64,000 nucleotides of DNA. Origin: Fusicatenibacter saccharivorans. Lineage in GTDB: Bacteria; Bacillota; Clostridia; Lachnospirales; Lachnospiraceae. A model generated the notes under the pieces. It was not told the DNA's origin and searched no databases. It saw only the letters and a program-made list of their open reading frames with translations. How positions within the stretch are numbered: position 1 is the first letter of the stretch; every line of letters starts with the position of its first letter. Positions 1 through 16,677 of the stretch are shown here, piece after piece. A program made the translations under genes and the position numbers. The stretch is taken from assembly GCF_015557635.1 (NCBI RefSeq), contig NZ_JADNOP010000001.1, positions 62,001 through 126,000 of the forward strand, in the 5' to 3' direction.

Positions 1-1083
<1,083 letters not shown>

Positions 1084-1174
1084 TTATGATTCAGTATAAA
1101 ACACTGCACGTGGATGAGAAATAGTTGATCTGGTGTTTCTTTTATCCAAAATGGGAAAGCAAAGGAGAAGTCGT

Positions 1175-2044
1175 ATGATACCGGAACATCTGCTTGCAAA
1201 AATAGAAAAGAGCGATGTTATCTATCGCTGTATTGGAAATGAAATGAAGAACGGGATTCTGGCGTGCGGTTTTATGCGGAAAGAGACGGCGGACCGCTCG
1301 CAGTATCATTTTTCGAACGAGTATTACAGCTGTTTCGTGCTGCTGCGCGGGAGCGGGGAATATATTGCTGAGGACGGCACCTCCTATCCGCTGCAGGCGG
1401 GAAGTCTGGTCCAGCGTCTGCCGGGTGTGCCGCATTCCACACGCGTAGACCCCGATGGGAAATGGCTGGAATTTTTTATCTCGATTGGGAAACCGTTTTT
1501 TGATTCTTTCTGCTCGCTTTCGGTTCTGAACCGGGAGCCGGTGTTAAAGGCAGAGCTGCTTCCCGGCGATCTCGAGCGGTATCAGAAGCTTCTGCAGTCG
1601 TTAAAGGCCACACCGGACAGTCTGCTGCCTTTGCGGATTCCGGAGATGGAAAAAGAGATTCTGCGAATGTACGGCTACCATGCGCACCGGGTGAATCTGC
1701 AGCGGGATCCGATCGAGGCCGCCTGCGATATGCTCTCGCAGAATCTTGATGAAGAAATTTCTCTCGAAGAGCTTGCCCGGTCACTCCAGATCGGTTATGA
1801 GACGTTTCGAAAAGTATTTAAAAAACAAACCGGCGTCTCTCCTGCACGGTACCGCACCAGGAAGAAAATGGAGCAGGCCCGTATTCTTCTCGAGGGCGGC
1901 GTACCGATGAAGGAAATTGCCGGTCTTGTCGGATATGGCGATGTCTATGCGTTCAGCAAGCAGTTTTCCCGGTTCTTTGGATTCCCGCCTGGAAAGTACC
2001 GCGCACGTCTTCACACGGATGCGCCGGATTTAGAACAGTTTTAA
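1175..2044 (+). CDS. AraC-family transcriptional regulator (cupin sensor plus HTH)
   Basis: The 289-residue protein begins at ATG 1175, chosen because AAAGGAGA sits at 1161-1168; an upstream in-frame TTG at 1133 has no ribosome site. Residues 1-140 form an AraC-type cupin arm (YYSCFVLLRGSGEYIAEDG, then a PHST turn typical of sugar sensors). The C-terminal 100 residues carry the double HTH: ISLEELARSLQIGYETFRKVFKKQTGVSPARYR and MKEIAGLVGYGDVYAFSKQFSRFFGFPPGKYR. It is divergent from lacZ, so it probably activates that gene in response to a sugar (inference). Its last 15 bases overlap the convergent nitroreductase gene. Confidence 0.92.
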   Translation: MIPEHLLAKIEKSDVIYRCIGNEMKNGILACGFMRKETADRSQYHFSNEYYSCFVLLRGSGEYIAEDGTSYPLQAGSLVQRLPGVPHSTRVDPDGKWLEFFISIGKPFFDSFCSLSVLNREPVLKAELLPGDLERYQKLLQSLKATPDSLLPLRIPEMEKEILRMYGYHAHRVNLQRDPIEAACDMLSQNLDEEISLEELARSLQIGYETFRKVFKKQTGVSPARYRTRKKMEQARILLEGGVPMKEIAGLVGYGDVYAFSKQFSRFFGFPPGKYRARLHTDAPDLEQF

Positions 2045-2566
2045 GATATCGTCCACGGTTTTACGTTTCGGCTTGTCCGGGTTGATGGCACGGTAGCCGA
2101 CAGCAATGACAGCACCAAGGAGCTCATTCTCCGGAATGGCGAGGGCTTCACGGATAGCTTTCTCATCACGGATTCCCATAATCAGAGTATCAAGGCCGAG
2201 TTCTCTTGCGCGCAGAATGAAGTTTTCGTCATGCAGGCCGAGATCGTAATAGCCCCAGCCGTTTCCGACTTCATTGTCCGGTGTTCCGTCCTGCGTGAAG
2301 CCGGAGCGGTCTTTTACGAATGCTGTTACGACAAGTGCGGCTCCCTTTGAACTCTTCTGATTGAATTCTGGAAGGCATTTTGCGGAAAATTCTTCGACTT
2401 TCTCCGGTGTTACAAGGGCATAGTACCGTGTTGTCTGTGAGTTTTTCCAGGATGGTGCCTGAATCGCTGCCTGTACGATCTCCTGGATCTGCTCTGCGGT
2501 TACGTGTTTCTCCGGATCAAACGCGCGGATGCTTCTTCTTTCTTCCAGCAGTTTTGTAAATTCCAT
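2030..2566 (-). CDS. Nitroreductase-family FMN flavoprotein
   Basis: This 178-residue protein begins MEFTKLLEERRSIRAFDPEK; the RRSIR motif binds the FMN phosphate in nitroreductases. Further family marks are AIQAPSWKNSQ (about 34-44), the central YYDLGLHDENFILRARELGLDTL helix and IPENELLGAVIAVGY near the end. It is expected to reduce nitroaromatics, quinones or related acceptors with NAD(P)H as a cytosolic homodimer. The start has an AAGGAGG site 8 bases upstream. It may be co-transcribed with the DUF3877 gene upstream. The physiological substrate cannot be told from sequence. Confidence 0.9.
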   Translation of the reverse strand: MEFTKLLEERRSIRAFDPEKHVTAEQIQEIVQAAIQAPSWKNSQTTRYYALVTPEKVEEFSAKCLPEFNQKSSKGAALVVTAFVKDRSGFTQDGTPDNEVGNGWGYYDLGLHDENFILRARELGLDTLIMGIRDEKAIREALAIPENELLGAVIAVGYRAINPDKPKRKTVDDILKLF

Positions 2567-2586
2567 GGTGTATATCCTCCTTTTAT

Positions 2587-3123
2587 TTATAAAGCCTCGT
2601 AATCTTCCCGTGAAAAACGGTGATACGTCAGGCCGAATTCATTTTCTTCGACACAGTAACAGTATTCATCCACAGACGGGTCTGAAAAAGAAAATACATG
2701 GCCCATCTCATGCTCCTCGGATGCGTTTTCTTCCACGGTAGTATGCATTTTCTCTGCATAGGAAGAAAAGCAGTTTCGAACCTGTTCCATTGTGTTTCCA
2801 GGCGTTGTGATCACCTGCAGAAGGTTCTGCAGGAGCTCCGGAACAGGAATTTTCCGCTCGATATAAGAACATCCCTCCTCCGGGATTTCCATGCAGTAGC
2901 GGTCCTTGACCGCTGAAATCGCAAGTGTTCCAAGACGCGGCTGTACTTCCTTACAGAACGCGGCAAGTGCCGCATCCAGGTCTTCTGTTTCGTCTAAAGA
3001 GAGGGAACGGCGCAGGGACTCCGCCGGGTAGTAGAGCTTCATCGTACCGCCCTCATAGCCGATCTTCACCTGCCATTCCCGAATCGTATCGGTAATATGT
3101 TTTTCCAACAGTTTTGCTGTCAT
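2587..3123 (-). CDS. DUF3877-like protein of unknown function
   Basis: The 178-residue protein begins MTAKLLEKHITDTIREWQ at ATG 3123, selected by a strong GGAGGTGA site; a longer reading to 3204 has no ribosome site. It contains a conserved-looking YEGGTMKLYYPAESL segment, acidic helices and a C-terminal YCYCVEENEFGLTYHRF strand. No signal peptide or membrane helix is visible. I recognise it as resembling the Firmicutes family DUF3877, from memory only, and assign no function. A possible promoter (TTCACA, 17 bp, GATAAT) lies upstream around 3174-3202. Confidence 0.65.
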   Translation of the reverse strand: MTAKLLEKHITDTIREWQVKIGYEGGTMKLYYPAESLRRSLSLDETEDLDAALAAFCKEVQPRLGTLAISAVKDRYCMEIPEEGCSYIERKIPVPELLQNLLQVITTPGNTMEQVRNCFSSYAEKMHTTVEENASEEHEMGHVFSFSDPSVDEYCYCVEENEFGLTYHRFSREDYEAL

Positions 3124-3259
3124 GTTTTCTAAGTCACCTCCATTGTGCTGCATGTGCAAAAAATACAGTATTATTATCGCATGAATTGGGTGTTGTGTGA
3201 ACACTTAATTTTTTGTTTTTTACAAAAAGAAAAGAATCACTTTTTTTACTCCTCGAAAC

Positions 3260-3302
3260 GGCAGAAACCTCCGCCAGAAAAGCTGGAACAGAGGTTTCTG
3301 TG
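3260..3302 (-). terminator. Hairpin downstream of the large surface-protein gene
   Basis: A 10-bp inverted repeat, CAGAAACCTC at 3262-3271 and GAGGTTTCTG at 3291-3300, has a second inner stem (CCAG/CTGG). It lies just after the stop of the 1599-residue protein. On the minus strand the following T-run is poor, so termination is plausible but not certain. Confidence 0.45.
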
Positions 3303-3344
3303 ATTTCTTATGTCAGAAGAATTTCTCAGTCATTTCGTTCTGAA

Positions 3345-6300
3345 TTACTCTTCGTCGTCGTTTTTCTTTCTGCCGCGGAGTTTGAATCCAAGTCCGCCGG
3401 CACCAAGAGATGCAACTGCCATGCTTACCCATCCCCAGATGTTGGTAGCATCACCGGTCTTTGCATTATCGCTCCTCTTGGAAGTAGAGGTATTGGATGC
3501 TTTATTACTTGCAAGCGGAGTAGATGTTGCTTTCGGGGTGCTTGTCGGGGTCTTCGTCGGCTGCGTCGTAGGTATTGTGGTAGGAGCAGTCGTCGGGGTT
3601 GTTGTTGGTGCTGTTGTAGGTGTAACCGTCGGAGTCTCAGTTGGGGTTACGGTTGGGGTCTCTGTAGGAGTAGGAGTCGGCTCTTCTGCTGATTTCTTCC
3701 AGGTGAAGCTAAGATCCTGATATCCCAGTGAAGAAACTGTAATTTCAAAGGAATCGCCCTCTGCGAACGGTGCTGCATCTGTCTTTAAGGAACCATCCTC
3801 ATTGAACAGTACAACAGCTCCTCTTCCGCTTGCTGCATATGTTTTTCCATTTACAGTAACAGAGGTAATGTTCTTCAGATAATCTGCAAACTCTTCATCT
3901 GTTGCATCCCCGTTCTTAAGCAGACCCGGTGTTGTCGTATCTTCGTTAAATGCTGCCGGCATCTCTTCCGTGTAAAGGATAAAGTCTGCGGAAAGATCTG
4001 CATATTTACCATTCTTATCGCTGACAGTCAATGTATAAGAACCTTTCTCTGCATTCTTGAAGTACAGAGTATCACCGGACACGGTTCCCGTCAGACCTTC
4101 TACTGTATAGACAGCATCGTAATCATCCGGCAGGCCTTCCAGTTTAACAGAAGCACTTCCAGATGTGACAGACGCATTCTCTACAGAAAATTCATATGCA
4201 AACTTAACCGGTACATATACATCTGCGTCGACTTCGTAAATTCCCTTGCTGGTGTAGTAGGTAATTTTGTTGATGGTCTGTCCCATCATGCTCTTGTAAT
4301 GTTCAGAAGAAGTCGGGCAATTATGAACGCTTGTGGTAAATCCAGTGCTCCAAGCCAGTTCAGACACTCTCCAGATATTCTCCAGATGACGCATTCCGTA
4401 ATCGTTGCCCTCTTTTGTGCTGACAACAACACCATATACGGTATCTTCGCCTGCTTTGATGGTATCAGTAAGACCATCCAGATCCAGCTGATAATCACCG
4501 TATTTGCTGTTAGTGGAGAGCTCTGCTGTTACATTTTCCAGCTTTGTTGCCTCAGCTCCCTGAACAGCACCAAAGGTTACATTTCCGTCTGCATCTACAG
4601 ATGCCTCTTTGTAATAAGATGGAACTTCATTTAAGGTGTAATATGCATAGCTTGCATTCTCATACAGTGCATCTTTTCCGGTATACGTTGTGGTGGATGT
4701 CTGTCCACGGTTGGTAACGGTGATTTCTACAGAATCCTCATCTGTCACTTTCGTGTATTTGCTCAGATCCATATCCCCTGTTACTTTTACTGGGAAGGTG
4801 ATACCTGTAATATCGCTTCCGTCTGCATTCACATGGTAAGATCCGCCGGAAAGTGAGGCTGTTCTTGTTTTGTTCTTGGTTGCGGAAGTAAATGCATCTA
4901 CTGGAACATCGTTATGAACCTCTGCCTGATAGAACTCAGCATACGGAATGTTCATTAATACATACTGGGACTGAAGTGCTTCGATTGCTGCATTCAGATG
5001 CTCTGTTGCTTCGTCTACGGTTCCCTGGCTCTGTTTTTTCTCCAATGCTTCTTTTGCTTCTGCCAGTTCTGTCTGCATATTATTCCAGGAAGTTTCCATG
5101 TAAAGATCTTTATTCAGTGCATCTGCCTTTGCAATTGCCTCTTCCAGTGCTGCTGTGCTCTCTACCGGATCAGCTCCTACAATGTTCGCTTTGGTTGCTT
5201 CAAAAGTGTAGGAAGCATCTGCATAGCCAAGTGCATGAATCGTAATCTTCCAATAACCGGTTCCATCCGTTCCCTCCGGTAAAGTGCAGCGCAGGGAATC
5301 GGTAAGGCCAAGCTGGATTCCCATTACTTTATGCATCCAGTTATCTGCTGCGAATTTTGTTCCATACGTTGCTTTTGCATTCGTATAAGTGGAATCATCA
5401 CCGTAATAAGTCCAGGTTACGGTCTGCAGATTAGCAGCCAGATCGCCGTAATCTCCCGTTAAATCTACGCGAAGGAATTCTCCATAAGAACCTTTGGCTT
5501 CTTTCACGGTCAGTCCTACGGTCTCAGCATCCGGAGCTGTCTTCAGCGCCTGATCTTTGATTCCGGATTCACTTCCTGTTGTTCTTGCAGAGAAGGAGAA
5601 GCTTCCATCTGCATTTTTCACTGCTATCTTCAGACCGTTTGTGTTTTCTGTTACATCTGCAACCAGGCCTGTATAGCTCTGCAGTTTATTTTCAGAAAAT
5701 CCACCGGAAAGTGTTCCGCCGTTTTCTACCACAACATGCTTTTTGCAGAAATCTTCGTAATCATCTTCCGAAACTTTTACAGGCACATATTTCAGACCTT
5801 TTACTTCATAATGATCAATCTGGCTCTTATCGTAAGTTACGGTCTCGCCGTTGGTCAGAACTGCCGTGGTTGCTGCGGTATAATATGCCACATCATAGGT
5901 TGTGCCATCTTTCATGTAGATAGTCGCTGCGCACTGGAAGCTTCCTCTGTGCAGTCCATGGTTTGTGGTCGCACGGGTTACAACATCAAAAGCGCCTTTA
6001 TCACTTTCTTCGCGACTGTCAGTTTCATCCGAACCAGCGTCGCTTCCTGCCGCCTGAACTCCTTCTGCTGCCCAATACTCAGCCCAGGTAAGACCTGCAT
6101 ATACATATTTATATGTTGTTTCTTTCTTCTCATAAGTAAAGGAAAGCGTCTTGTAACCTGTTGCAGTTATTTCGATTTCAAATTTATTTCCTTCTGCAAA
6201 AGCGGCAGCTGTCAGATCAAGCGTACCGTCTTCTTTGATCAGAATTGTTTTCCGTTTTCCAGTTGCTGCATATTCTTTTCCATTTACTTTTACGGAAGTA

Positions 6301-8144
6301 ATATTCTTGATATAATCAGCAAAATCTTCTTCTGATGCATCCTCTGCTTTTACAAGCGCCGGAGCACTTGCTTTTTCATTGTAAGCAGCCGGCATTGCAT
6401 CTGTATATAGGGTAAAGCTCTGTGTCAGATCTGCATAAACACCTTTTTTATCATGAATCGTCAGAGTATACATTCCTTTTTTCGCATTTGCGGAATAAGA
6501 AATGGTATTTCCGTCTACTGCAAATCCATCCAGACCATCTACGGAATATTCTGCATCATAATCAGCCGGAAGTCCGGTTACGGTCATCGTTGTCTTTCCA
6601 GCGGAAAGAGAAGCGTCTTCTACGGATACACTTGCCTCAAATTTTGTTGGAACAAAAATATCATTCACTGGAATCGTGTAGATTCCTTTGCTGGTATAAT
6701 ACGTAACCTTATTGATATGCTGTCCCATCATGCTCTTGTAATGTGCAGAAGAAGTCGGGCAGCCATGTACCTGCGTTGTAAATCCAGTTGACCATGCCAG
6801 CTCTGTTCCGCGCCAGATATTTTCCACATGACGCATACCATAGTCATTGCCTTCTTTCGTGCTGACAATAACACCATAGATCTGATCGGTTCCAACATCA
6901 ATCGTGTTCTCCAGTCCGTCGAGATCCAGCTGATAATCTCCATAGCTTGATTCAGTCATAAATTCCGGAGATACATTGGTCAGTTCAATTGCAGTTCCAA
7001 CTGTTTTTCCAAAAGAAAGAGAGCCATCTGCATTTACCGTTGCTTCTTTGTAGTAAGAAGGTGCTTCGCTTAATACATAATATGCATAGTCTGAGTTTTC
7101 AAATAAGGCGTCTTTTCCGGTGTATGTCTGTGTAGATGTCTGACCACGGTTTGTTACTGTAATACTTACAGAATCAGAATCTGTTACTTTCTTAAATTTG
7201 GAAAGATCCACTCCTGTTACTTTAACCGGGAAGGTAATTCCATTGATTGCACTTCCATCTACATTGGTATGATAAGAACCACCGGCAAGAGTGGCTGTTC
7301 TTGTTTTGCTCTTCGTTGCGGAAGAAAATACATCCACTGGAACAGAGTTGTTTACATCTGCAGCATAAAATTCATCATACGGAATGTTCATCAGAACGTA
7401 AGCCACCTGCTCAGTTGGAGTCTCGGTCGGGGTCGCCGTTGGGGTTGCGGTTGGCGTTGCTGTCGGGGTCGCCGTCGGAGTCAGTGCTTTAACAAGGCCT
7501 TTTACTGCAGTATTCAGCGCATCTTTCGCGGTATCAACAGCGCTCTGGGATTCTTTTGCAGAAAGAGCAGATTTTGCTGCGGTAAGAGCAGTCTGGACAG
7601 CTTTCCAGGAGTCTGCGGTGTAGTCAGCTTCCTTTAATGCTTCGGCATCTGCGATTGTTTTTTCAAGTGCTGTGGTGTCTACTGCTTCTGGAGTCGGGGT
7701 TGCTTTTTGGGTTGCTGCAAGAGCCGCGGTTTTTACTGCATTCGAAGTTCTGGTTGCACCCGATACAATATCCCATTCTTCAATGTTTTCAATCGTTGCA
7801 TCTTTTCCAAGAAGTTTCGTTTTGAATCCTTTGCTGTTTGTAGCTGCTTTTTTGAAATATGTGGCATTCTCTGTATTGTATCCAGAGCCAGGCGTTACTG
7901 CAATGTCAGAAAATTTGCCGTCTGCAACTGTGATTTTGACATTAACGTCATATTCATCCCATGCATTCTCATCCTCATCGTCTTCTGCTGTTCTGGTAAC
8001 ATGAGCGGTAGACTCATAAGTACCATCTGCCAGCACGCCGCTTGCGGAATCCGCCAGTACGGTTCCCGGGAGCAGGCTCATGGTCATGGAAGCTGCCATT
8101 ACGGCTGCTAATGATTTTTTCTGAAGTTCTTTTCTTTTGATCAT
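3345..8144 (-). CDS. Giant cell-wall protein: FMN-binding domain, FIVAR and Tp47-like repeats, P/T linkers, sortase signal
   Basis: The 1599-residue protein has, in order: a signal peptide (1 to about 31); an FMN-binding domain (about 35-145) ending in DIVSGAT with flavin-acceptor candidate Thr131; a FIVAR-like helical repeat (about 155-218); a P/T-rich linker; a unit starting YVLMNIPYDEFYAADV that resembles Treponema Tp47 domains; Ig/HID-like modules (ITSVKVNGKEYAATGK); a second FIVAR (about 995-1060); a second Tp47-like unit (from about 1062, YVLMNIPYAEFYQAEV); and a P/T linker (about 1488-1546). The tail is NAKTGD, a hydrophobic helix and LRGRKKNDDEE, a sortase-type anchor with a non-LPXTG motif. 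The start has an AAGGAGG site. It follows the apbE operon but has its own promoter. Domain names come from memory; substrate and redox partner are unknown. Confidence 0.85.
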   Translation of the reverse strand: MIKRKELQKKSLAAVMAASMTMSLLPGTVLADSASGVLADGTYESTAHVTRTAEDDEDENAWDEYDVNVKITVADGKFSDIAVTPGSGYNTENATYFKKAATNSKGFKTKLLGKDATIENIEEWDIVSGATRTSNAVKTAALAATQKATPTPEAVDTTALEKTIADAEALKEADYTADSWKAVQTALTAAKSALSAKESQSAVDTAKDALNTAVKGLVKALTPTATPTATPTATPTATPTETPTEQVAYVLMNIPYDEFYAADVNNSVPVDVFSSATKSKTRTATLAGGSYHTNVDGSAINGITFPVKVTGVDLSKFKKVTDSDSVSITVTNRGQTSTQTYTGKDALFENSDYAYYVLSEAPSYYKEATVNADGSLSFGKTVGTAIELTNVSPEFMTESSYGDYQLDLDGLENTIDVGTDQIYGVIVSTKEGNDYGMRHVENIWRGTELAWSTGFTTQVHGCPTSSAHYKSMMGQHINKVTYYTSKGIYTIPVNDIFVPTKFEASVSVEDASLSAGKTTMTVTGLPADYDAEYSVDGLDGFAVDGNTISYSANAKKGMYTLTIHDKKGVYADLTQSFTLYTDAMPAAYNEKASAPALVKAEDASEEDFADYIKNITSVKVNGKEYAATGKRKTILIKEDGTLDLTAAAFAEGNKFEIEITATGYKTLSFTYEKKETTYKYVYAGLTWAEYWAAEGVQAAGSDAGSDETDSREESDKGAFDVVTRATTNHGLHRGSFQCAATIYMKDGTTYDVAYYTAATTAVLTNGETVTYDKSQIDHYEVKGLKYVPVKVSEDDYEDFCKKHVVVENGGTLSGGFSENKLQSYTGLVADVTENTNGLKIAVKNADGSFSFSARTTGSESGIKDQALKTAPDAETVGLTVKEAKGSYGEFLRVDLTGDYGDLAANLQTVTWTYYGDDSTYTNAKATYGTKFAADNWMHKVMGIQLGLTDSLRCTLPEGTDGTGYWKITIHALGYADASYTFEATKANIVGADPVESTAALEEAIAKADALNKDLYMETSWNNMQTELAEAKEALEKKQSQGTVDEATEHLNAAIEALQSQYVLMNIPYAEFYQAEVHNDVPVDAFTSATKNKTRTASLSGGSYHVNADGSDITGITFPVKVTGDMDLSKYTKVTDEDSVEITVTNRGQTSTTTYTGKDALYENASYAYYTLNEVPSYYKEASVDADGNVTFGAVQGAEATKLENVTAELSTNSKYGDYQLDLDGLTDTIKAGEDTVYGVVVSTKEGNDYGMRHLENIWRVSELAWSTGFTTSVHNCPTSSEHYKSMMGQTINKITYYTSKGIYEVDADVYVPVKFAYEFSVENASVTSGSASVKLEGLPDDYDAVYTVEGLTGTVSGDTLYFKNAEKGSYTLTVSDKNGKYADLSADFILYTEEMPAAFNEDTTTPGLLKNGDATDEEFADYLKNITSVTVNGKTYAASGRGAVVLFNEDGSLKTDAAPFAEGDSFEITVSSLGYQDLSFTWKKSAEEPTPTPTETPTVTPTETPTVTPTTAPTTTPTTAPTTIPTTQPTKTPTSTPKATSTPLASNKASNTSTSKRSDNAKTGDATNIWGWVSMAVASLGAGGLGFKLRGRKKNDDEE

Positions 8145-8213
8145 AACTTCCTCCTTTTTCCTTTTCCACAGTTTTGCAGGAAAAACAGGGGCAAAACTGT
8201 TATTTATTATTAC

Positions 8214-8229
8214 ATTAGTTTATACTAAT
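8214..8229. promoter_or_regulatory. Palindromic operator candidate upstream of the giant surface protein
   Basis: ATTAGT-TTAT-ACTAAT is a perfect 6-4-6 palindrome about 20 bp downstream of the predicted transcription start, a position typical of repressor sites. The core TTAG-N6-CTAA recurs at the apbE promoter (14008-14023) and the eno promoter (41455-41470). Confidence 0.55.
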
Positions 8230-8257
8230 TAATAATTGCTTTAACTAACTATAAAAC

Positions 8258-8286
8258 ATTTTACTAATTTTAGATCGTTTTGTCTA
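8258..8286 (-). promoter_or_regulatory. Sigma-A promoter of the giant surface protein gene
   Basis: On the minus strand, -35 TAGACA (8286-8281), a 17-bp spacer and -10 TAAAAT (8263-8258) each match consensus in five of six bases. The surrounding 281-bp AT-rich region also holds four CTAA elements spaced 19-20 bp apart. Confidence 0.65.
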
Positions 8287-8425
8287 ACTCTTAACTGAGT
8301 ATTTTTTCTCAAACGCGCACAGATACTGTTTATTGAGATTTTTTATTATTAATTTGTATGTTTCTTTGAAATTTGCGGAACGATTTTTGTCTCCGCACAG
8401 ATAAATGGTACTAGATGTGCAGTAC

Positions 8426-8950
8426 CTACCGAGAAGAACTCTTCCGTCCTTCGCGTTTTACTGCCGAAAGAATGCGGTCAGAAAGGATTCCGATCAGCAT
8501 TCCGGTAATGACACCGGCTACGAGAAGTGCCGGTAAATAATAGAACAGTTTGCGGTTCTGTACAACGAGAGCCGCCACGCAGATCTGCGCGACATTGTGC
8601 GTCACGCCGCCGGCAATACTTACGCCGGTGATACTGAATCCTTTGATATGTTTCAGTAAGAACATCACAAGAAAACTCAGGAGTCCGCCGGCAAGACTGT
8701 AAAGAATGGACATTCCATTTCCAAACAGATAGCCCATCAGAAGAATGCGGGCAACGGAAATCATCAGGACTTCCCCGGCAGGAAAGAAAAAGAGACCGAC
8801 AACGACAACCAGATTGGCAATACCAAGTTTAATGCCGGGAACGCCGAGGTTGATCGGGATCAGTACCTCCACGTAACTGAAAATCATGGCAAGTGCCATC
8901 AACATGGCGCATAAGGCAATTTTTCTGCTTGCAGTGCGGCTGTCTCTCAT
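8426..8950 (-). CDS. Gx transporter family membrane protein (heptaprenyl diphosphate synthase component I-like)
   Basis: The 174-residue hydrophobic protein has about five membrane segments. Start ATG 8950 is set by AGAAAGGA upstream; an in-frame TTG nine bases earlier overlaps that site. The signature PINLGVPGIKLGIANLV and the glycine-rich AGGVTHNVAQICVAALV segment match the family annotated as heptaprenyl diphosphate synthase component I / Gx transporter, which resembles ECF S-components. It is the last gene of the apbE operon, 30 bases after the NusG_II gene. As I recall, the same pair (EetA and EetB) occurs in Gram-positive extracellular electron-transfer loci, where EetB-like proteins are thought to help the flavin or quinone electron path (inference). 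Confidence 0.8.
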   Translation of the reverse strand: MRDSRTASRKIALCAMLMALAMIFSYVEVLIPINLGVPGIKLGIANLVVVVGLFFFPAGEVLMISVARILLMGYLFGNGMSILYSLAGGLLSFLVMFLLKHIKGFSITGVSIAGGVTHNVAQICVAALVVQNRKLFYYLPALLVAGVITGMLIGILSDRILSAVKREGRKSSSR

Positions 8951-8980
8951 AAATTCCAATTCCTTTCTTCTAAGCTGGTA

Positions 8981-9364
8981 TTATTTTACAATCACATCCG
9001 GCGCATCGTCGGCGTCGTCCGTTGTGGATCCGTCACTTTCTACCTCCGCAACCAGCTTATGCGGCAGGCACACGATCGTCTCATTTACCCGGGAAATCGT
9101 ACCCTGTCTTTTGCAGTAGCCGTCCGGGCAGTCAGCTTCTTCCATATGGACACTTCCGTTTTCAATCACCAGGACATTCGTTCCGTGACCCGTCTGAATT
9201 TTCACGGTCTGATTTTCTGCGAGTGAATACGTTCCGTAGACCTCGCCGTCCACCGTGACTTTCATGGTATTTCCATTTTCCGTTTTCGGCAGCCGAAGCG
9301 CCAGGGCAAGGATTCCAGCCAGGAGCAGAACGGCGCCTGCCAGAATCAGATCTTTTTTCTTCAT
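8981..9364 (-). CDS. NusG domain II-containing membrane-anchored protein (EetA-like)
   Basis: The 127-residue protein starts at ATG 9364 behind AAGGAAA; a longer reading overlaps the upstream gene and lacks a ribosome site. One N-terminal membrane helix (about 5-25) is followed by an extracytoplasmic NusG_II-type beta domain: VTVDGEVYGTYSL, GTNVLVIENGSVHMEEADCPDGYC and CLPHKLVAEVE. Two cysteines (CPDGYC) could bind metal or form a disulfide. It sits between the polyferredoxin and the Gx transporter in one operon. Small NusG_II proteins of this kind accompany RnfG/ApbE-type flavoproteins in Firmicutes; a role in membrane-to-surface electron transfer is inferred from that context. Confidence 0.78.
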   Translation of the reverse strand: MKKKDLILAGAVLLLAGILALALRLPKTENGNTMKVTVDGEVYGTYSLAENQTVKIQTGHGTNVLVIENGSVHMEEADCPDGYCKRQGTISRVNETIVCLPHKLVAEVESDGSTTDDADDAPDVIVK

Positions 9365-9384
9365 ATAGTTTTCCTTATTCTGAA

Positions 9385-10257
9385 TCAGATGCCAGCCCAT
9401 AACAGCAGTGTCAGCAGGAATACAGCACGGAACAGCGTAAAGAGGATTTCATTTCCGTGAAGTTCCTTTACCCCGCAGCGGATATTGCCTTTTGGACACG
9501 TATCAATACATTTCTGGCACTGGAAACAGTCGCCGGAGATTTCCACGGATCCATCGGATGGCAGTTCCACTGCTGACGGGCACTGTCTCGTGCAGGCGCT
9601 GCAGCCGCGGATGCAGTTTTCGCGTTTCCGGTGCAGAGTAAAGAACGGCAGGATCGGAAGCAGAGAAAAGACAGCTCCCATTGGGCACAGGAAACGGCAG
9701 AAAAAGCGCTCCTCAAAGAACATGCCGACCAGGATCAGCACCAGAAGAACAATGCCTGGAATATAAGAGGAAAGTCGGAAATTTCCCGCATGCAGCATGG
9801 AAAAGACATCCCACGGGCTTGTTCCTCTTGCTTTCTGATAAACTCCTGCAAAGCAGCAAAGGGCAATCAGAAGCAGAATGCCGTATTTGATCAGTACCAG
9901 TTTTTTTGCCAGCTCCGGTTTGATGCATCTGGGCTTCTTTTTACGTTTCTTACAGATTATACCATAAATTGCGTGCATTGCATCCCCCAGACTTCCAAAA
10001 GCGCATGCAAAACCGCAGAAAAATCTGCCGAAAACAATCGTAAATGCACAGACAAGGAGCAGAGCCGACACAAACGCGGTCATCTCAATTTTTTCACCCT
10101 GTCCAAGCTGCGTAAAAATGTATTTCACTCCGTTAAATGCAGCGGTAAATACTGACGGAAGAAACAGGAAATATAAAAGCTGGATTCCGGCACGCAGGCA
10201 GGAAACGATCTGTTTTCTCTTCTTTGCCGGTAATGTGGATAGATCTAAATTTTTCAT
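9385..10257 (-). CDS. NapH/RdxA-like membrane polyferredoxin (4Fe-4S)
   Basis: The 290-residue protein has about five membrane helices and four cysteine clusters. GRFFCGFACAFG and ERFFCRFLCPMG (Cys-x3-Cys pairs at membrane borders) are typical of NapH/NosR/CcoG proteins. Two ferredoxin motifs follow: CIRGCSACTRQCP and CFQCQKCIDTCPKG, predicted to carry two 4Fe-4S clusters on the cytoplasmic side. A last membrane helix closes the protein. It would move electrons from a cytosolic donor through the membrane to the FMN-binding proteins encoded just upstream. The gene starts one base after the FMN-binding gene ends, indicating tight coupling. The donor is unknown; no NADH dehydrogenase gene is in the operon. 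Confidence 0.88.
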   Translation of the reverse strand: MKNLDLSTLPAKKRKQIVSCLRAGIQLLYFLFLPSVFTAAFNGVKYIFTQLGQGEKIEMTAFVSALLLVCAFTIVFGRFFCGFACAFGSLGDAMHAIYGIICKKRKKKPRCIKPELAKKLVLIKYGILLLIALCCFAGVYQKARGTSPWDVFSMLHAGNFRLSSYIPGIVLLVLILVGMFFEERFFCRFLCPMGAVFSLLPILPFFTLHRKRENCIRGCSACTRQCPSAVELPSDGSVEISGDCFQCQKCIDTCPKGNIRCGVKELHGNEILFTLFRAVFLLTLLLWAGI

Positions 10258-10258
10258 G

Positions 10259-10747
10259 TTATTTCTCCGCCTTTTCTATTGCTTCCTGCGCCGCATTTCT
10301 GATACCGGTGGAGCTGAATGTTGCTCCGCTGATCGTATCAACATCGGCGGACTGTGCCTCAATAATCTTTGGAATGATCGCCTCCGCGTTTGACAGATAC
10401 GCACTGTCCTCGCCGTCGGCGGATGTGATGGCAAGATCGGTAATCTGGCCGCCCTCTACGGTTACTTCAACTGCAATGGTGCCGCCGAAGCCGTCAGCCT
10501 CACCGTCATACGTGCCGTCCACATACTGCCCTTCTGCTTCTGCTGCTTCACTTGCGGCCGTATCCGCCGTGTTGGATGCAGCTGCTGCGGCCTGCAGATT
10601 TTCCTTCTGAAGCTGGGTCGTCTCAAGCTCTGCCGAGAGCCGCGCGATCTGATCCTCTTTGTCTCTTTTATCGAGTACGGTATTGTAGCCGATCAGAACA
10701 GCAGCAATGACAGCGACATTCAAAAAACGAACAATCAATTGTCTCAT
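10259..10747 (-). CDS. Single-domain membrane-anchored FMN-binding protein
   Basis: The 162-residue protein has an N-terminal membrane anchor (about 6-24), a coiled Ala/Glu-rich stalk (30-72) and one FMN_bind domain (about 75-160) related to RnfG/NqrC. The flavinylation motif DTISGAT ends at Thr143, the predicted site of covalent FMN attachment by ApbE. Conserved DGTYDGEADGFGGTIAVEV and YLSNAEAIIPKIIEAQS precede it. It probably relays electrons between the polyferredoxin and the multi-flavin protein encoded by the neighbouring gene. The start has AAAGGGGAA upstream. Covalent FMN is inferred from motif and operon. Confidence 0.9.
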   Translation of the reverse strand: MRQLIVRFLNVAVIAAVLIGYNTVLDKRDKEDQIARLSAELETTQLQKENLQAAAAASNTADTAASEAAEAEGQYVDGTYDGEADGFGGTIAVEVTVEGGQITDLAITSADGEDSAYLSNAEAIIPKIIEAQSADVDTISGATFSSTGIRNAAQEAIEKAEK

Positions 10748-10759
10748 CTGTTTTCCCCT

Positions 10760-12817
10760 TTATTGTGTTACTTTCGCAGCATCCAGCGCATTCCGGCATG
10801 CCTCAAGAATGGCTTTTGAGGAGCAGGTTGCACGGGAAACGGTGTCGATGTTTTCAAGCGTTCCGGTTTCCAAAATCTGAGCGGAAACGCCTTTGATTTT
10901 GGAGGTTCCTTCGGATGCGCGGCGGATGTAGGAGGCATTCTGACTGTCTCCGTCACCGGTGATGTTGCTTAACGCTACGATTTTATCGTTTTCAATTGTT
11001 ACCGTCACGGAAAGCTGATAAGCGGTAAAATCTTCATCTTCATCCGGCTCGCAGACGGCAATCGCTGTATATTCGCCGTCCTGATAGATCTTTTGTTCCG
11101 GAGTTTCCGTCGGGGTTGGTGTTGGCGTCTCAGTTGGCTCCGGGGTTTCGGTCGGGGTTGGTGTTTCCGTCGGTGTCGGAGTTACCGTTGGCGTCGGGGT
11201 TGGATTTTTCTTTTCCTCAGTTACGCGTTCTGCCTCTTTTAAAGCTTCCTCGATTGCCGCAAGAATTCCCCTGGAGCTGTAGGTTGCGCCGGAAACGGTG
11301 TCGACTTCCAGTGTCTGGTTTTTCACAACGTCCTTTGCTGTCTGTTTTGCGCGTTTTAAGAATGCTTCGTCATCTTCACTCTCGGTCACGAGAATTGCCT
11401 TGATCGTCTTATCCTGAATGACAACTGCCGTTGTAATGTCTCCCAGATAGCCCTCGCCGGTTCCGTAGTAAATGCCTTCCTCGTATGGGAATTTTCCTTC
11501 CGGAATCGTTGTGGTTCCGCCGCTGCTCGTTCCGTTATCCGGAACGGTCTCGCCGTTTGTTGCTTTCTTCGCATTTTCCAGCGCCTGTTTTACTGCGTTC
11601 TGGATGCCGCGGGAGCTGTACGTTGCGCCGGATACGAGATCCACATCGGTTTTCTGTCCGTCTACGATGTGGTCCGCTACGACTTTGGCACGGTTGAAGA
11701 ATGTCTCGTCATCTTCATTTTCCAGAATCAGTACCGCTTTGATCGTCTGATCCTGCAGGGCTACCGCCACTTTGATGTCTCCCTGGAAACCGGCGGCCGT
11801 TCCGTAATAAATTCCGTCCTGATAAGGAAAACTTCCCTTGGATGCAGACGAGTTGTTATTGTTCTGGCCGTTATTCTGACTGTTGTTTCCGTTGTTTGTA
11901 TTGCCCTGGCTTCCTCCGTTTGTACTGGAAGACCCGTTCACTGCCGCCTGACTTAAGGCACTCCGCACAGCTTCAATAATACCGCGGGAGCTGTATGTCG
12001 CGCCGGAGACCGTATCCACATTCGTACTCTGTGTTGAGATAATCGTCGAAATCAGAGAGGAAGCACTGGAAAGGTAGCTTGGCGTATCGCTGTTTTCCAC
12101 AATATCAATCGAAGCAATTTTTCCGCCGCTGACAACAACGCAGACTTTCATTGTGCCGCCAAATCCCGTTCCGGTTCCGTAATACGTTCCATCCCGGTAG
12201 GCAGCCGGTTCTTCGATTTTAGATACTGTAACGGTTCCGCCGGCAGAGGCTCCGCCGCCTGCCGCTCCTGATGCGGATGCCGGTTCTGAAGTGTCCTCCT
12301 GACCGGTCAGTGCATTTTTCACGGCTGCAAGGATACCTTTTGAACTGAAAGTTGCACCGGAAACCGTGTCCACATCCACACTCTGGGATGCGATGATGCG
12401 GTCGATAACTCCCTTCGCACGGTTCAGGAAAGCTGCGTCCTCGCCGGGAGCGCTTACAATCGAGATCGACTGAATCGTTTTGTCTTTCAATACGACAGAG
12501 ACTGTAATCGTACCGCCAAAACCTGTTCCGCTTCCTTCGTACGTTCCGTCCGCCAGTTCAAAGCTGCCGGAACCGACGGCTGCGACAAGTTCTGCTTCGG
12601 TATCGGTTGTCTTTTGGGTATCGTCCTTCTTTTTTGTATCATCTTTCTTTTCCGCTGCATCGGTATCCTGTTCCGGCTCCGGTGTCACCAGTGCCTCCGG
12701 CTGCTCTACGGCGTAAACCGGTGCAGTGTAGCCGTTCAGCGAAATACCGGCGCAGGCTGCTACGATAACTGCCGCGAGAGCCGGTGCAAATGCTGTCAGT
12801 TTTTTCCATTTTCCCAT
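10760..12817 (-). CDS. Five-domain FMN-binding extracytosolic protein (multi-flavin)
   Basis: The 685-residue protein has an N-terminal export/anchor segment (about 10-36), an acidic-lysine linker and five FMN_bind repeats. The first four end in SGAT motifs with acceptor threonines at about 156, 274, 399 and 512. The fifth (about 577-680), after a P/T-rich linker (539-573), has DTVSRAT, where glycine is replaced by arginine. That fifth domain resembles the N-terminal domain of the giant surface protein more than its own siblings (acidic loop, QLSVTVTIENDKIVAL). Up to four or five covalent FMN groups could form a flavin chain across the wall. It lies two bases after apbE. The Asn/Gly-rich stretch at 295-326 is probably a flexible spacer. 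Confidence 0.9.
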   Translation of the reverse strand: MGKWKKLTAFAPALAAVIVAACAGISLNGYTAPVYAVEQPEALVTPEPEQDTDAAEKKDDTKKKDDTQKTTDTEAELVAAVGSGSFELADGTYEGSGTGFGGTITVSVVLKDKTIQSISIVSAPGEDAAFLNRAKGVIDRIIASQSVDVDTVSGATFSSKGILAAVKNALTGQEDTSEPASASGAAGGGASAGGTVTVSKIEEPAAYRDGTYYGTGTGFGGTMKVCVVVSGGKIASIDIVENSDTPSYLSSASSLISTIISTQSTNVDTVSGATYSSRGIIEAVRSALSQAAVNGSSSTNGGSQGNTNNGNNSQNNGQNNNNSSASKGSFPYQDGIYYGTAAGFQGDIKVAVALQDQTIKAVLILENEDDETFFNRAKVVADHIVDGQKTDVDLVSGATYSSRGIQNAVKQALENAKKATNGETVPDNGTSSGGTTTIPEGKFPYEEGIYYGTGEGYLGDITTAVVIQDKTIKAILVTESEDDEAFLKRAKQTAKDVVKNQTLEVDTVSGATYSSRGILAAIEEALKEAERVTEEKKNPTPTPTVTPTPTETPTPTETPEPTETPTPTPTETPEQKIYQDGEYTAIAVCEPDEDEDFTAYQLSVTVTIENDKIVALSNITGDGDSQNASYIRRASEGTSKIKGVSAQILETGTLENIDTVSRATCSSKAILEACRNALDAAKVTQ

Positions 12818-12819
12818 GG

Positions 12820-13983
12820 TTATGTATCACCGTCTTTCCTGATAATGTTTGTCTCGTGATCGGATGTGAAATCGTCAGCAATTCCTTCGGTTACATACAG
12901 AACGCCGTCCTCATCCTCCAGAATGGTGTCAAATTCATCGCTGTGTGCACGCCAGTATTCGGCTGCCTTGTCCTTTCCCATGATGAAAAGAGAAGTAGAA
13001 AGGCCATCCGCCAGTGTTCCGTCAGCACTTACGATCGTCACCGACACCAGACCGTTATTTGCCGGATGACCGGTCGATGGGTCGATGATGTGATGATATT
13101 TCACGCCGTCCTGTTCAAAATACCGTTCGTAGCCTCCGGAGGTAATGACGGCACGGTCTGCAGTCGAGAGAATGCCGAGGTAATCGTCCTCTGTTTCCGG
13201 ACTCTGCACTGCGACGCGCCATTTGCTGCCGTCCGTTTTTGTACCGACAACCTGAACATTTCCACCGAGGTTAATCAGTCCGCTCGTCACACCGCATTCC
13301 CGGTAAATATCTGCGATTCTGCCGGACGTATAGCCCTTTGCGATTCCGCCGAAATCGATTTTCATACCATCTTTTGCAAAGCTGATGGACGATTCGTCTT
13401 TATCATAGATAATATTGTTCGCGTCGGTGAGCGGGAGAAGATTTTCAATCATCTCATCCGAAGGAACCGTATAGTTTCCGGTGGTAAATCCCCAGGCGTC
13501 CATGAGAGGGTAAATTGCGATGTCAAAAACACCGTTCGTACTGTCATACAGATCCAGAGAACGCTCCAGCAGATAGGTGGTATCTTCTGACAAGGTTCCG
13601 CCGCCGTTCGCATTGATCTGCGCTACCTCACTCGTCTCCGCACCGGTTGAAAGGAGCGCATCCAGCCGTTCAATCTCTTGCTGTGCCTGATCCACGGCCA
13701 TCTCCGCGTTCGGACCGTAAGCAGTCACCGTCATATACGTATCCATCGCAAAGATATCCCGACTGCTCGATGCATCTGCGGTATCGGAAGAAGCTGTGGA
13801 TGATGCGGATTCCTGCGTGGAATTCTCTTCCGAAGCGTCAGAACTGCTCGAAGGCTCCGCAACAGATGCCGGCTGTGTCTGACTTCCGCTGCTCTCCGGC
13901 TGCGCTGCTGTCCCCGTACCGGAACATCCGCCGACCGTCATCACCATGGCAAGACAAAATGCTGCAACAATTTTCTTTTTCAT
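12820..13983 (-). CDS. apbE: FAD:protein FMN transferase (ApbE), lipoprotein
   Basis: The 387-residue lipoprotein has lipobox VGGC with Cys20, then a Ser/Ala-rich linker (22-75). The ApbE fold follows: RDIFAMDTYMTVTAYG, FDIAIYPLMDAWGF, the signature KIDFGGIAKGYTSGRIA, GLINLGGNVQVVGTK, HHIIDPSTGHPANNGLVSVTIV and the Mg-binding TLADGLSTSLFIMG. The enzyme attaches FMN from FAD to the Thr of SGAT motifs on exported proteins. It heads an operon whose next two genes encode five plus one such domains, so these and the giant surface protein are its likely substrates. The start has a GGAG site and the promoter carries a TTAG-N6-CTAA palindrome. Confidence 0.95.
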   Translation of the reverse strand: MKKKIVAAFCLAMVMTVGGCSGTGTAAQPESSGSQTQPASVAEPSSSSDASEENSTQESASSTASSDTADASSSRDIFAMDTYMTVTAYGPNAEMAVDQAQQEIERLDALLSTGAETSEVAQINANGGGTLSEDTTYLLERSLDLYDSTNGVFDIAIYPLMDAWGFTTGNYTVPSDEMIENLLPLTDANNIIYDKDESSISFAKDGMKIDFGGIAKGYTSGRIADIYRECGVTSGLINLGGNVQVVGTKTDGSKWRVAVQSPETEDDYLGILSTADRAVITSGGYERYFEQDGVKYHHIIDPSTGHPANNGLVSVTIVSADGTLADGLSTSLFIMGKDKAAEYWRAHSDEFDTILEDEDGVLYVTEGIADDFTSDHETNIIRKDGDT

Positions 13984-14007
13984 AAATAAAACTCCATTTT
14001 TTCTTAT

Positions 14008-14023
14008 GTTAGGAAATTCTAAC
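14008..14023. promoter_or_regulatory. Palindromic operator candidate at the apbE promoter
   Basis: GTTAG-GAAATT-CTAAC is a perfect 5-6-5 palindrome. It starts at about +1 relative to the predicted extended -10 and shares TTAG-N6-CTAA with the sites at 8214 and 41455. Confidence 0.55.
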
Positions 14024-14029
14024 TTTGGT

Positions 14030-14038
14030 ATTATAACA
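14030..14038 (-). promoter_or_regulatory. Extended -10 promoter of the apbE operon
   Basis: On the minus strand TG-T-TATAAT reads from 14038 to 14030. No clear -35 is present at 17 bp, consistent with an extended -10 promoter. It would drive all six genes down to 8426. The rest of the 246-bp gap to pflB holds the pflB terminator. Confidence 0.5.
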
Positions 14039-14167
14039 TTAACTCGTAACTTACGCTATGAATTACTTGATAAAAGTTTTTCAATTAGCGTTCTGCATCT
14101 GATAAATTTTCTCATTTTATGTACTCTAAATCAAGTGGATTTTACTGGAATTCAAGCACCGATATAC

Positions 14168-14209
14168 AAAAAGCCCCCACAGCCGCATTACTGCGGCCGC
14201 GGGGGCTTT
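14168..14209 (-). terminator. Rho-independent terminator of pflB
   Basis: On the minus strand a GC-rich stem (AAGCCCCCGCGGCCGCAG paired to CTGTGGGGGCTT around a short loop) is followed by five T residues. It lies about 20 bases after the pflB stop codon. Confidence 0.9.
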
Positions 14210-14229
14210 AGAAATAACATTTTCAGAAA

Positions 14230-16482
14230 TTACATATGATCATGGCAGGTACGTGCAATTACGTCCATCTGCTGCTCTTTTGTCAGGTCGATGAATTTAA
14301 CTGCATAGCCGGATACACGGATCGTGAAGTTTGCATACTCCGGTTTCTCCGGGTGCTCCATTGCGTCGATCAGTTTTTCGGTTCCGAATACGTTTACGTT
14401 CAGGTGATGTGCACCCTGCTCGAAGTATCCGTCCAGAACGTGTACCAGGTTCTCGGTACGCTCTTCGTCGTTATGGCCAAGTGCGCCCGGGTTGATGGTC
14501 TGGGTGTTGGAGATTCCGTCCAGAGCGTCCTCATACGGCAGTTTTGCTACAGAGTTCAGGGAAGCAAGAAGTCCGCTCTTCTCTGCGCCGTAAGACGGGT
14601 TAGCTCCTGGAGACAGAGGCTCACCGGCTTTTCTTCCGTCCGGCAGAGAACCAGTTGCTTTACCATATACAACGTTGGAAGTAATGGTAAGGATAGAGGT
14701 AGTCGGCTCAGAATCACGATAGGTATGGCAGTATTTCAGTTTGTCCATGAAGGTACGAAGCAGCCATACAGCGATCTCGTCTGCTCTGTCATCGTCGTTG
14801 CCGTATCTTGGGAAGTCGCCGGTTGTCTCGAAGTCAACAGCCATTCCTTCTTCGTCACGGATAACTTTAACTTTAGCGTATTTGATTGCGCTTAAGGAGT
14901 CTACTACGTGAGAGAATCCTGCGATACCGGTTGCGAAGGTACGTCTTACATCGGTGTCGATCAGAGCCATCTCTGCTGCCTCATAGTAGTATTTGTCATG
15001 CATGTAATGGATCATGTTCAGAGTTCCAACGTACAGATGAGCCAGCCAGTCCATCATAACGTCGTATTTCTTCATAACCTCATCATAGTCCAGATACTCG
15101 CTGGTGATCGGCTGATATTCCGGAGCAACCTGCTGTTTTGTCTTCTCGTCTTTACCGCCGTTGATAGCGTACAGAAGGCATTTTGCAAGGTTTGCACGAG
15201 CGCCGAAGAACTGGATCTCCTTACCGGTCTCGGTAGCAGATACACAGCAACAGATGGAGTAATCATCGCCCCATACCGGACGCATTACATCATCGTTCTC
15301 ATACTGGATAGAGCTTGTCTGTACAGAAATATGAGCTGCATATTTCTTGAAAGCTTCCGGAAGATTCTCAGAGTACAGAACAGTAAGGTTCGGCTCTGGG
15401 GACGGTCCCATGTTTTCCAGTGTATGCAGGAAACGGAAATCGTTCTTTGTAACGATAGAACGTCCGTCGATTCCCATACCGGCAACTTCCAGAGTAGCCC
15501 ATACCGGGTCACCGGAGAACAGCTGATTGTAAGACGGAATTCTTGCGAATTTAACCATACGGAATTTCATTACCAGATGGTCGATCAGCTCCTGAGCTTC
15601 TTTCTCAGTCAGGATTCCTTTTTCAATATCTCTTTCGATGTAGATATCAAGGAAAGTAGATACACGGCCAACGCTCATTGCAGCACCGTTCTGAGTTTTG
15701 ATAGCTGCAAGGTATCCGAAGTACAGCCACTGAACAGCTTCTCTTGCGTTCTTAGCCGGCTCGGAAATGTCATAGCCATAGGACTGTGCCATAACTTTCA
15801 TATCCTGCAGTGCTCTGACCTGGTCAGCGATCTCTTCTCTTAACTGGAAGTCACCACGACGCATTCCCTGACGATTTGTTGCAGCGAAGTCTGCTTTTTT
15901 GCGCTCGATCAGGTAATCAATACCGTACAGAGCAACACGACGATAGTCGCCTACGATACGGCCACGGCCATAGGTATCCGGCAGACCGGTCAGGATTTTA
16001 TTATGACGGGCTTTCAGCATCTCTGGTGTGTAGATGTCGAATACACCCTGGTTATGTGTTTTGTGATATTTAGTGAAAATTTCATGAAGCTTCTCGCTTG
16101 GTTTGTAGCCGTAAGTCTCGCAGGACTGCTCAGCCATTTTAATTCCACCATACGGCATAAATGCACGTTTCAGCGGTTTGTCTGTCTGAAGACCAACTAC
16201 CTGCTCCAGATCTTTCATGCTGTCATCGATATATGCTGCGCCGTAAGCTGTGATTCCGCTTACAACGTCTGTCTCCATATCCAGAACGCCGCCTTTTGCA
16301 CGCTCTTCTTTCTGGAGTTCCTGTAATTTGCCCCACAGACGGTCTGTAGCCTCTGTTGGTCCCTCCAGGAATTTCTCATCTCCGTCATATGGAGTATAGT
16401 TGTTCTGAATAAAGTCACGTACGTCGATGCCTTCTTTCCAGAGTCTTCCGGTAAAGCCATCCCACTGTTCAAATTCTCTCAT
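14230..16482 (-). CDS. pflB: Formate C-acetyltransferase (pyruvate formate-lyase)
   Basis: The 750-residue glycyl-radical enzyme converts pyruvate and CoA to acetyl-CoA and formate. The active-site cysteine pair lies in [15 protein letters not shown] (about 408-422), and the glycyl-radical loop is [12 protein letters not shown] near the C-terminus (Gly about 725). [25 protein letters not shown] is the usual N-terminus. The start ATG has AGAAAGGA upstream. The activase gene pflA, often adjacent, is not next to it: the following gene is apbE after a strong terminator. A consensus promoter and a short leader ORF lie upstream. Oxygen-sensitive, so it supports an anaerobic fermenter. Confidence 0.98.
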
Positions 16483-16503
16483 TTGATTTGTTCCTTTCTG
16501 GTG

Positions 16504-16548
16504 TTATTTTGTTTCGTCACGCTCCGGCATCTTCTTTGCACCGGGCAT
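16504..16548 (-). CDS. Putative 14-residue leader peptide upstream of pflB
   Basis: The short frame MPGAKKMPERDETK begins 19 bases downstream of the pflB -10 box. It has a near-ideal GGAGGTG site five bases before its ATG and stops 21 bases before the pflB start codon. It is rich in Lys, Glu and Pro with no run of one amino acid, so a classical attenuator is not obvious. It could couple translation into pflB or be a small protein in its own right. Confidence 0.45.
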   Translation of the reverse strand: MPGAKKMPERDETK

Positions 16549-16566
16549 GAACACCTCCGCATGGAT

Positions 16567-16595
16567 AATATAACAAATCTCTGCTTTCCGCGCAA
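16567..16595 (-). promoter_or_regulatory. Sigma-A promoter of pflB
   Basis: On the minus strand TTGCGC (16595-16590), 17 bp, TATATT (16572-16567). The transcript would include the 14-codon leader frame before pflB. Confidence 0.65.
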
Positions 16596-16607
16596 GATAT
16601 GCACTTG

Positions 16608-16645
16608 AAAAAATACAAGGAAAACCACAAAATCTTGTATTTTTA
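16608..16645 (-). terminator. Rho-independent terminator of the glycosidase gene
   Basis: The inverted repeat AAAATACAAG / CTTGTATTTT is flanked by A and T runs. Read on the minus strand it ends in T6, just after the GH101/129-like gene and before the pflB promoter. Confidence 0.8.
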
Positions 16646-16677
16646 TAAGAACAAAATCTACATGTGGCGCTTTTCTT

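Follow-up and report, generated by a model that had tools for sequence, protein, structure and literature searches.

The DNA analysed here, referred to throughout as the window, is a 64,000-nt stretch of the Fusicatenibacter saccharivorans genome (GCF_015557635.1, NZ_JADNOP010000001.1, positions 62,001-126,000, forward strand), and our subject is a seven-gene locus at 3345-13983 on its minus strand that encodes a putative flavin-based electron-transfer system together with a large surface protein of 1599 residues. We conclude that modules of this protein related to Tp47, the 47-kDa lipoprotein of Treponema pallidum, are likely to be where flavin-based electron transfer ends at the surface. A sequence-only reading of the same DNA had described the locus, and open reading frames together with family profiles bear out the position and family of all seven genes, including the identities given to ApbE, to the five-domain and one-domain proteins that bind flavin mononucleotide (FMN), to NusG_II, to Gx and to the membrane Fe-S protein:

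12820..13983, minus strand: ApbE, flavin adenine dinucleotide (FAD):protein FMN transferase with a lipoprotein-like N-terminus (VGGC); PF02424, 298 bits
10760..12817, minus strand: 685-residue protein with five FMN_bind domains (four SGAT, the last SRAT); PF04205 in five stretches, 224 bits
10259..10747, minus strand: 162-residue membrane-anchored protein with one FMN_bind domain (SGAT); PF04205, 51 bits
9385..10257, minus strand: NapH-like polytopic Fe-S protein with two C-terminal [4Fe-4S] motifs; PF12801 (Fer4_5), 37 bits, and cysteine motifs
8981..9400, minus strand: NusG_II protein (EetA-like); PF07009, 111 bits
8426..8959, minus strand: Gx / PF07456 membrane protein (EetB-like); 138 bits
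3345..8144, minus strand: 1599-residue surface protein with a signal peptide, an FMN_bind domain, a FIVAR-like stretch, three Tp47-related modules, HID domains and a sortase-type anchor

The first six genes are spaced between a 16-base overlap and a 21-base gap, in agreement with the tight operon that had been proposed, and 281 bases separate the sixth from the gene of the 1599-residue protein, which may have a promoter of its own. Directly upstream of the ribosome-binding site of this last gene, within the 281-bp AT-rich leader, lies a perfect 10-bp inverted repeat (8168-8200, minus strand; ACAGTTTTGC / GCAAAACTGT), a possible regulatory site. The PF12801 match of the Fe-S protein stands against a cut-off of 22 bits; NapH models match the protein with an expect value (E) of 1e-19, and the NapH subfamily model gives 71 bits against a cut-off of 213. 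The ApbE of the window (12820..13983) is the sole match to this enzyme found genome-wide. About six covalent flavins had been predicted for the locus. Its FMN_bind domains in fact number seven. Six of them end in SGAT and carry the motif recognised by ApbE, D-x-x-[S/T]-G-A-[S/T]; the seventh, the fifth domain of the 685-residue protein, ends in SRAT.

Within the 1599-residue protein the following parts can be distinguished:

7701..8033, minus strand: FMN_bind domain with the heptad DIVSGAT at 7752-7772; PF04205, 26.6 bits (cut-off 22)
6615..7409, minus strand: Tp47-related module R1 with the heptad DVFSSAT at 7314-7334, by profile comparison
5175..6122, minus strand: module R2, Tp47_a plus Tp47_c, with the heptad DVVTRAT at 5967-5987; PF14889, 218 bits, and PF14888, 251 bits, both over the curated cut-off of 25
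4179..4970, minus strand: Tp47-related module R3 with the heptad DAFTSAT at 4878-4898, by profile comparison
3348..3467, minus strand: sorting signal NAKTGD followed by a hydrophobic stretch and a charged tail, by sequence; orthologs end alike

The first of these domains ends in SGAT, as had been noticed, but the whole is not simply a wall-anchored flavoprotein. This domain accounts for only about 110 of the 1599 residues, and most of the rest consists of Tp47-type modules; the Tp47_a and Tp47_c domains, two Shr-HID stretches and the FIVAR-like stretch had been overlooked. Across systems, the conserved part is the Tp47-type modules. The FIVAR match reaches 26.3 bits in the window protein, under the cut-off of 29.2, and 46 bits, over the cut-off, in the ortholog of locus L026. 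Sortase-type wall anchoring is plausible: NAKTGD is a variant of LPXTG, orthologs carry PKTGD, VKTGD or LPGTGD at their likewise matching ends, and the genome encodes four sortases. Heme c in the surface protein was ruled out, CxxCH being absent.

The relationship of R2 to Tp47 is evident in both sequence and fold. A profile of R2 and its relatives retrieves the structure of T. pallidum Tp47 (1O75) at 9e-27, and the AlphaFold model of R2 retrieves it at 1e-14, with no other structure below 1e-3. R1 and R3 share 65% identity over 431 columns and are distant kin of R2 (96-97% in profile comparison, E ~1e-9), with their heptads in register; their relation to Tp47 comes by profile only, and the fold search gave no confident structural neighbour for the R3 model. 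A weak match of R2 to superoxide reductase (E 0.02, template modelling (TM) score 0.19) was judged a coincidence of immunoglobulin (Ig)-like folds. Homology of the module to FMN_bind was likewise rejected, as profile comparison gave a probability below 1% and a single local match of 13-15 columns over the heptad; no FMN_bind structure appears among the listed fold matches of the R2 and R3 models. Two secreted-looking proteins at other flavin loci (L059:6524-8458 and L062:18313-20000), with the heptads DVISSAT and DAVTSAT, were missed by the A5 profile and are possibly another branch of the module superfamily.

The heptad D-x-x-[S/T]-x-A-T is kept in 54 of 61 modules, and the Gly of the ApbE motif occurs in none; its position is held by R in the Tp47_a type and mostly by S or T in the other type. 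In the Tp47_a type the form is D-[A/V/T]-V-[S/T]-R-A-T without exception (19 modules), T. pallidum Tp47 having FDAVSRAT, and 35 of the 42 modules of the other type read D-x-[V/F/M/I]-[S/T]-x-A-T, with SSVT (three times), SSPT, TSPT, EAVSSAT and SSSN as the seven departures. In an alignment of 20 modules with identity down to 23%, only ten columns are invariant, three of them being the heptad residues D, A and T, and an invariant Lys lies three residues past the heptad. A chance origin was rejected: with 20000 shuffles of column order, a heptad of this kind came up 1, 0 and 0 times in the three alignments. In both models (R2 and R3) the heptad falls in a loop whose predicted local distance difference test score (pLDDT) is below 50.

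It has been shown that ApbE recognises the seven residues D-x-x-[S/T]-G-A-[S/T] and labels this motif even when it is inserted in a surface loop (PMC12052999). In this regard, the Tp47-type modules, that of T. pallidum Tp47 included, could be a new structural class of ApbE substrate in which a mobile loop presents D-x-V-[S/T]-[R/S/T]-A-T and FMN is linked to its threonine, a proposal drawn from sequence that we regard as tentative and rather unlikely. The full motif is found in none of the modules. In a known substrate, a Gly-to-Ala change retained ~50% of flavinylation (PMC12052999), so that the absent Gly makes flavinylation of the modules less probable rather than impossible. About one in six FMN_bind domains at the same loci also has R, S, T or H instead of the SGAT Gly; these (L026-L030, L042-L046 and 10760-11090 of the window) are for the most part final domains of multi-FMN proteins or N-terminal domains of surface proteins, and a locus-by-locus comparison of the Gly position in FMN_bind and module motifs gave no clear pattern of co-variation. 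Were the proposal true, the modules would be surface flavin electron carriers rather than penicillin-binding proteins, the covalent flavins of the window would rise from seven to ten, and heptad peptides such as ATHGHGAFR and GAFDVVTRATTNHGLHR would show ~+438 Da (FMN minus water) in spectra.

The same loop admits another account, to which we give somewhat less than an even chance and which would be a sub-case of the explanation we favour: the modules would be free of flavin and would bind the final acceptor, or an iron or heme ligand, for delivery to the covalent flavins. The predicted binding site would be formed by the heptad loop and a second conserved loop, TKFAADNWMHK. These are the two most conserved stretches of Tp47_a and both are modelled with low confidence, as would be expected of a site missing its ligand. 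The absence of the SGAT Gly from every module, with SSVT or SSPT in some, points the same way, and so do the HID domains present in many of these module proteins, the resemblance of one partner type to ferric reductases and an HMA/FeoB-associated gene in locus L083. Ligand binding leaves unexplained, however, why D, S/T, A and T of the ApbE heptad recur in the loop; HID by itself is no proof of heme binding, and an iron-uptake gene was not recognised beside most of these loci.

The distribution of the modules ties them to flavin genes. We sampled 398 genomes phylum-wide, 397 genomes in the family, and 299 related genomes for the module and NapH searches. Tp47_a is not a common domain, exceeding the cut-off in only one of the 398 genomes and in 12 of the 397. 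A close NapH gene (E <= 1e-58) is present in 24 of the 299 genomes, half of which (12/24) hold Tp47_a; conversely, all 12 genomes with Tp47_a have a close NapH gene and no NapH-less genome has Tp47_a, an association with a Fisher probability of ~1e-15 when relatedness is ignored. The Tp47_a gene lies no more than 10 kb from apbE in nine of the 12; in the other three it is at a contig end adjoining NapH, a degenerate copy, or elsewhere in the genome (L031). Since these genomes of 2.5-4 Mb carry one or two apbE genes each, chance proximity would amount to a few per cent. Linkage holds as well for seven out of seven loci from named records, among them [Ruminococcus] faecis, Collinsella aerofaciens and other Coriobacteriia, and most NapH loci that lack Tp47_a hold a module protein of the R1/R3 type instead.

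The expanded profile A7 located 30 module loci, spread over 28 of the 299 genomes, and at 28 of these loci FMN_bind or apbE is either part of the same chain or no more than 10 kb away (exceptions, L075 and L072). As A7 was partly built from loci found via NapH, a cleaner test comes from the loci found only by the module (L066-L078 and L083): flavin linkage holds for 11 of the 13 in the family, and for L083 too. This linkage bears on the idea that the modules are structural or peptidoglycan-binding parts that merely hold the flavoproteins in the wall. Such a role would suit a wall-anchored protein with Ig-like folds around its modules, and for Tp47 itself penicillin binding and penicillinase activity have been described (PMC11057208). 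Nevertheless, separate anchors are already present in these proteins (sortase signal, SLH, choline-binding repeats, FIVAR), and anchoring needs neither an invariant heptad nor restriction to flavin loci, which makes this explanation improbable in our view.

Three types of electron partner occur beside the modules: the NapH-like protein, a ferric-reductase-like protein with an FMN_bind domain of its own and, outside the family, a Tat-signal [FeFe] hydrogenase. The second type is found at L066, L068, L069, L071, L073 and L074, where the module gene adjoins that of a polytopic membrane protein whose C-terminal part is an FMN_bind domain; one such protein matches Ferric_reduct at 1e-5, below the cut-off, and the others share its two histidine sites by inspection. 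These six loci are minimal two-gene pairs of a module protein and a ferric-reductase-like membrane protein. At L070 the module gene adjoins an FMN_bind reading frame. The third type comes from L083, which belongs to another family of the class Clostridia: its 1578-residue SLH-anchored protein combines a Tp47_a-like module (DAVSRAT) with two of the R1/R3 type (DAVSSAT) and adjoins, at L083:5315-15651, a protein with two FMN_bind domains, ApbE, NusG_II, TatC and the hydrogenase. It is possible that L083 represents an extracytosolic hydrogenase wired to surface flavoproteins. Two further arrangements were seen. At L077:9031-15435, a 2134-residue chain joins four FMN_bind domains to one module, whose heptad is lost (DSVSSSN). 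In the same genome as the window, a 613-residue NapH-like protein is fused to two FMN_bind domains (G000:C33 near 150 kb; L036:9203-11044), with no module protein recognised beside it, and forms a second flavin electron-transfer gene there; as only one ApbE was found in the genome, the RnfG-like FMN_bind protein at G000:C33 should depend on that enzyme too.

That the module stays constant while the electron partner varies is our main reason for placing it at the outer, redox-relevant end of the system. The hydrogenase locus also raises the converse idea of inward flow, in which the surface protein would take electrons from an outside donor and the flavins would pass them to the membrane protein, as a Tat-exported [FeFe] hydrogenase could oxidise H2 outside. 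We consider this quite improbable. Fermenting Lachnospiraceae are usually in need of electron sinks, not sources, which argues against it. In addition, the characterised flavinylated reductase systems and those of extracellular electron transfer (EET) run outward (PMC8238504).

Our preferred model, with the Tp47-type modules at the surface end of an outward path, can be outlined as follows. Electrons would enter at the NapH-like Fe-S protein from a cytosolic reductant, for example ferredoxin, and be carried over the membrane to the 162-residue one-FMN protein, from which they would pass to the five-FMN protein and then to the wall-anchored 1599-residue protein. The flavins would be installed by ApbE, with a supply probably helped by NusG_II/Gx, and the modules would form the outer end as a dedicated partner that stays in place when the electron partner is swapped. 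The path formerly suggested, through the Fe-S protein and the flavins to the wall, thus stands as the best reading, although we infer its direction and the order of its carriers, as we do the redox participation of the modules.

As to the donor, menaquinone synthesis needs the UbiA family. The family is absent from the window genome (99.98% complete) and present in 14 of 14 control genomes; without it there is no menaquinone route, and a quinol donor is unlikely. For NapH-like proteins elsewhere, quinol is in some cases the presumed donor (PMC8238504). With respect to flavin supply, Gx is fused to CbiQ at L042:16078-17460 and to an ABC ATPase, followed by CbiQ, at L046:7541-9666 (Coriobacteriia). 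These fusions indicate that Gx is probably the S-component of an energy-coupling factor (ECF) transporter. In Listeria, flavin is reported to be supplied by an ECF transporter (PMC9973259), and by analogy the natural role of Gx would be flavin supply to ApbE.

Several points weigh against this model. No heme motif is evident in the modules, and unless the heptad is flavinylated they have no known cofactor. The hydrogenase locus L083 fits inward electron flow too. The module genes of L075 and L031 have no flavin gene in reach, both genomes having a flavin cluster elsewhere, and the same is true of L072, on a contig of only 8.5 kb. Finally, the Fer4_5 and FIVAR assignments come from modest matches, that of FIVAR under its cut-off.

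The novelty lies in a Tp47-type module that recurs as the surface partner, and in its ApbE-like heptad. The large surface proteins of such clusters were formerly unannotated and of unclear role, and the module now names their surface part, offering a testable family for the last step of flavin-based EET in Clostridia and Coriobacteriia. For Tp47, a major antigen in syphilis whose structure is solved but whose function is unsettled, it also leads to the hypothesis of a redox role, possibly with covalent flavin. Tp47 is not mentioned in the text of Meheust 2021 (PMC8238504). In the open-access papers searched we found none with both Tp47 and an FMN-binding domain, and none naming PF14889 or PF14888; subscription papers and supplementary tables, outside this scope, may hold the link.

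Among known systems, the EET locus of Listeria monocytogenes shares ApbE, FMN_bind, NusG_II and PF07456 (EetA/EetB-like) with the window. The sequence-only reading had remarked that Ndh2, demethylmenaquinone genes and a PplA-type lipoprotein are lacking, rightly so: no Ndh2 is found among the open reading frames of 1-18000, the part of the genome searched for it, demethylmenaquinone genes are absent beside the operon, and the best PplA match by the operon reaches 22 bits against a cut-off of 325. Instead, the window has the Fe-S membrane protein, the multi-FMN protein and the surface protein with Tp47-type modules. A Listeria-type locus shrunk by gene loss, in which the Fe-S protein replaces Ndh2 as had been suggested, would account for the co-occurrence of the four shared families. 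With neither Ndh2 nor PplA in the cluster and no UbiA in the genome, we nonetheless judge it highly improbable. The locus fits a different class already described, one defined by NapH-like and multi-FMN proteins (PMC8238504), and NusG_II and Gx are missing from many sister loci: of the 47 neighbourhoods scanned, 18 contain Gx and 16 NusG_II.

The FMN_red and Flavodoxin_4 substrates of ApbE (Huang et al. 2024, PMC11334425) resemble the modules in having folds other than FMN_bind and an ApbE-like motif beside apbE; the folds are unrelated, and the modules have neither the motif Gly nor a known flavin-binding ancestor. With Tp47 (TP0574, PDB 1O75), the modules share the sequence and fold of Tp47_a/Tp47_c, the loop FDAVSRAT corresponding to that of R2. 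Tp47 is nevertheless a lipoprotein with one module and is known as a penicillin-binding protein, whereas the window modules are repeated, wall-anchored and encoded at a flavin locus. As a system, the locus fits, by its sequence, the NapH-like, multi-flavinylated clusters of Meheust et al. (2021, eLife; PMC8238504), in some of which large wall proteins bearing FIVAR, SLH and other domains were left unannotated. Both have a NapH-like Fe-S protein, ApbE, one or more separate FMN_bind proteins, a multi-FMN protein and a large wall protein, that of the window with a FIVAR-like stretch under the cut-off. The difference lies in the core of the window's wall protein, a Tp47-type module that is found also with other electron partners.

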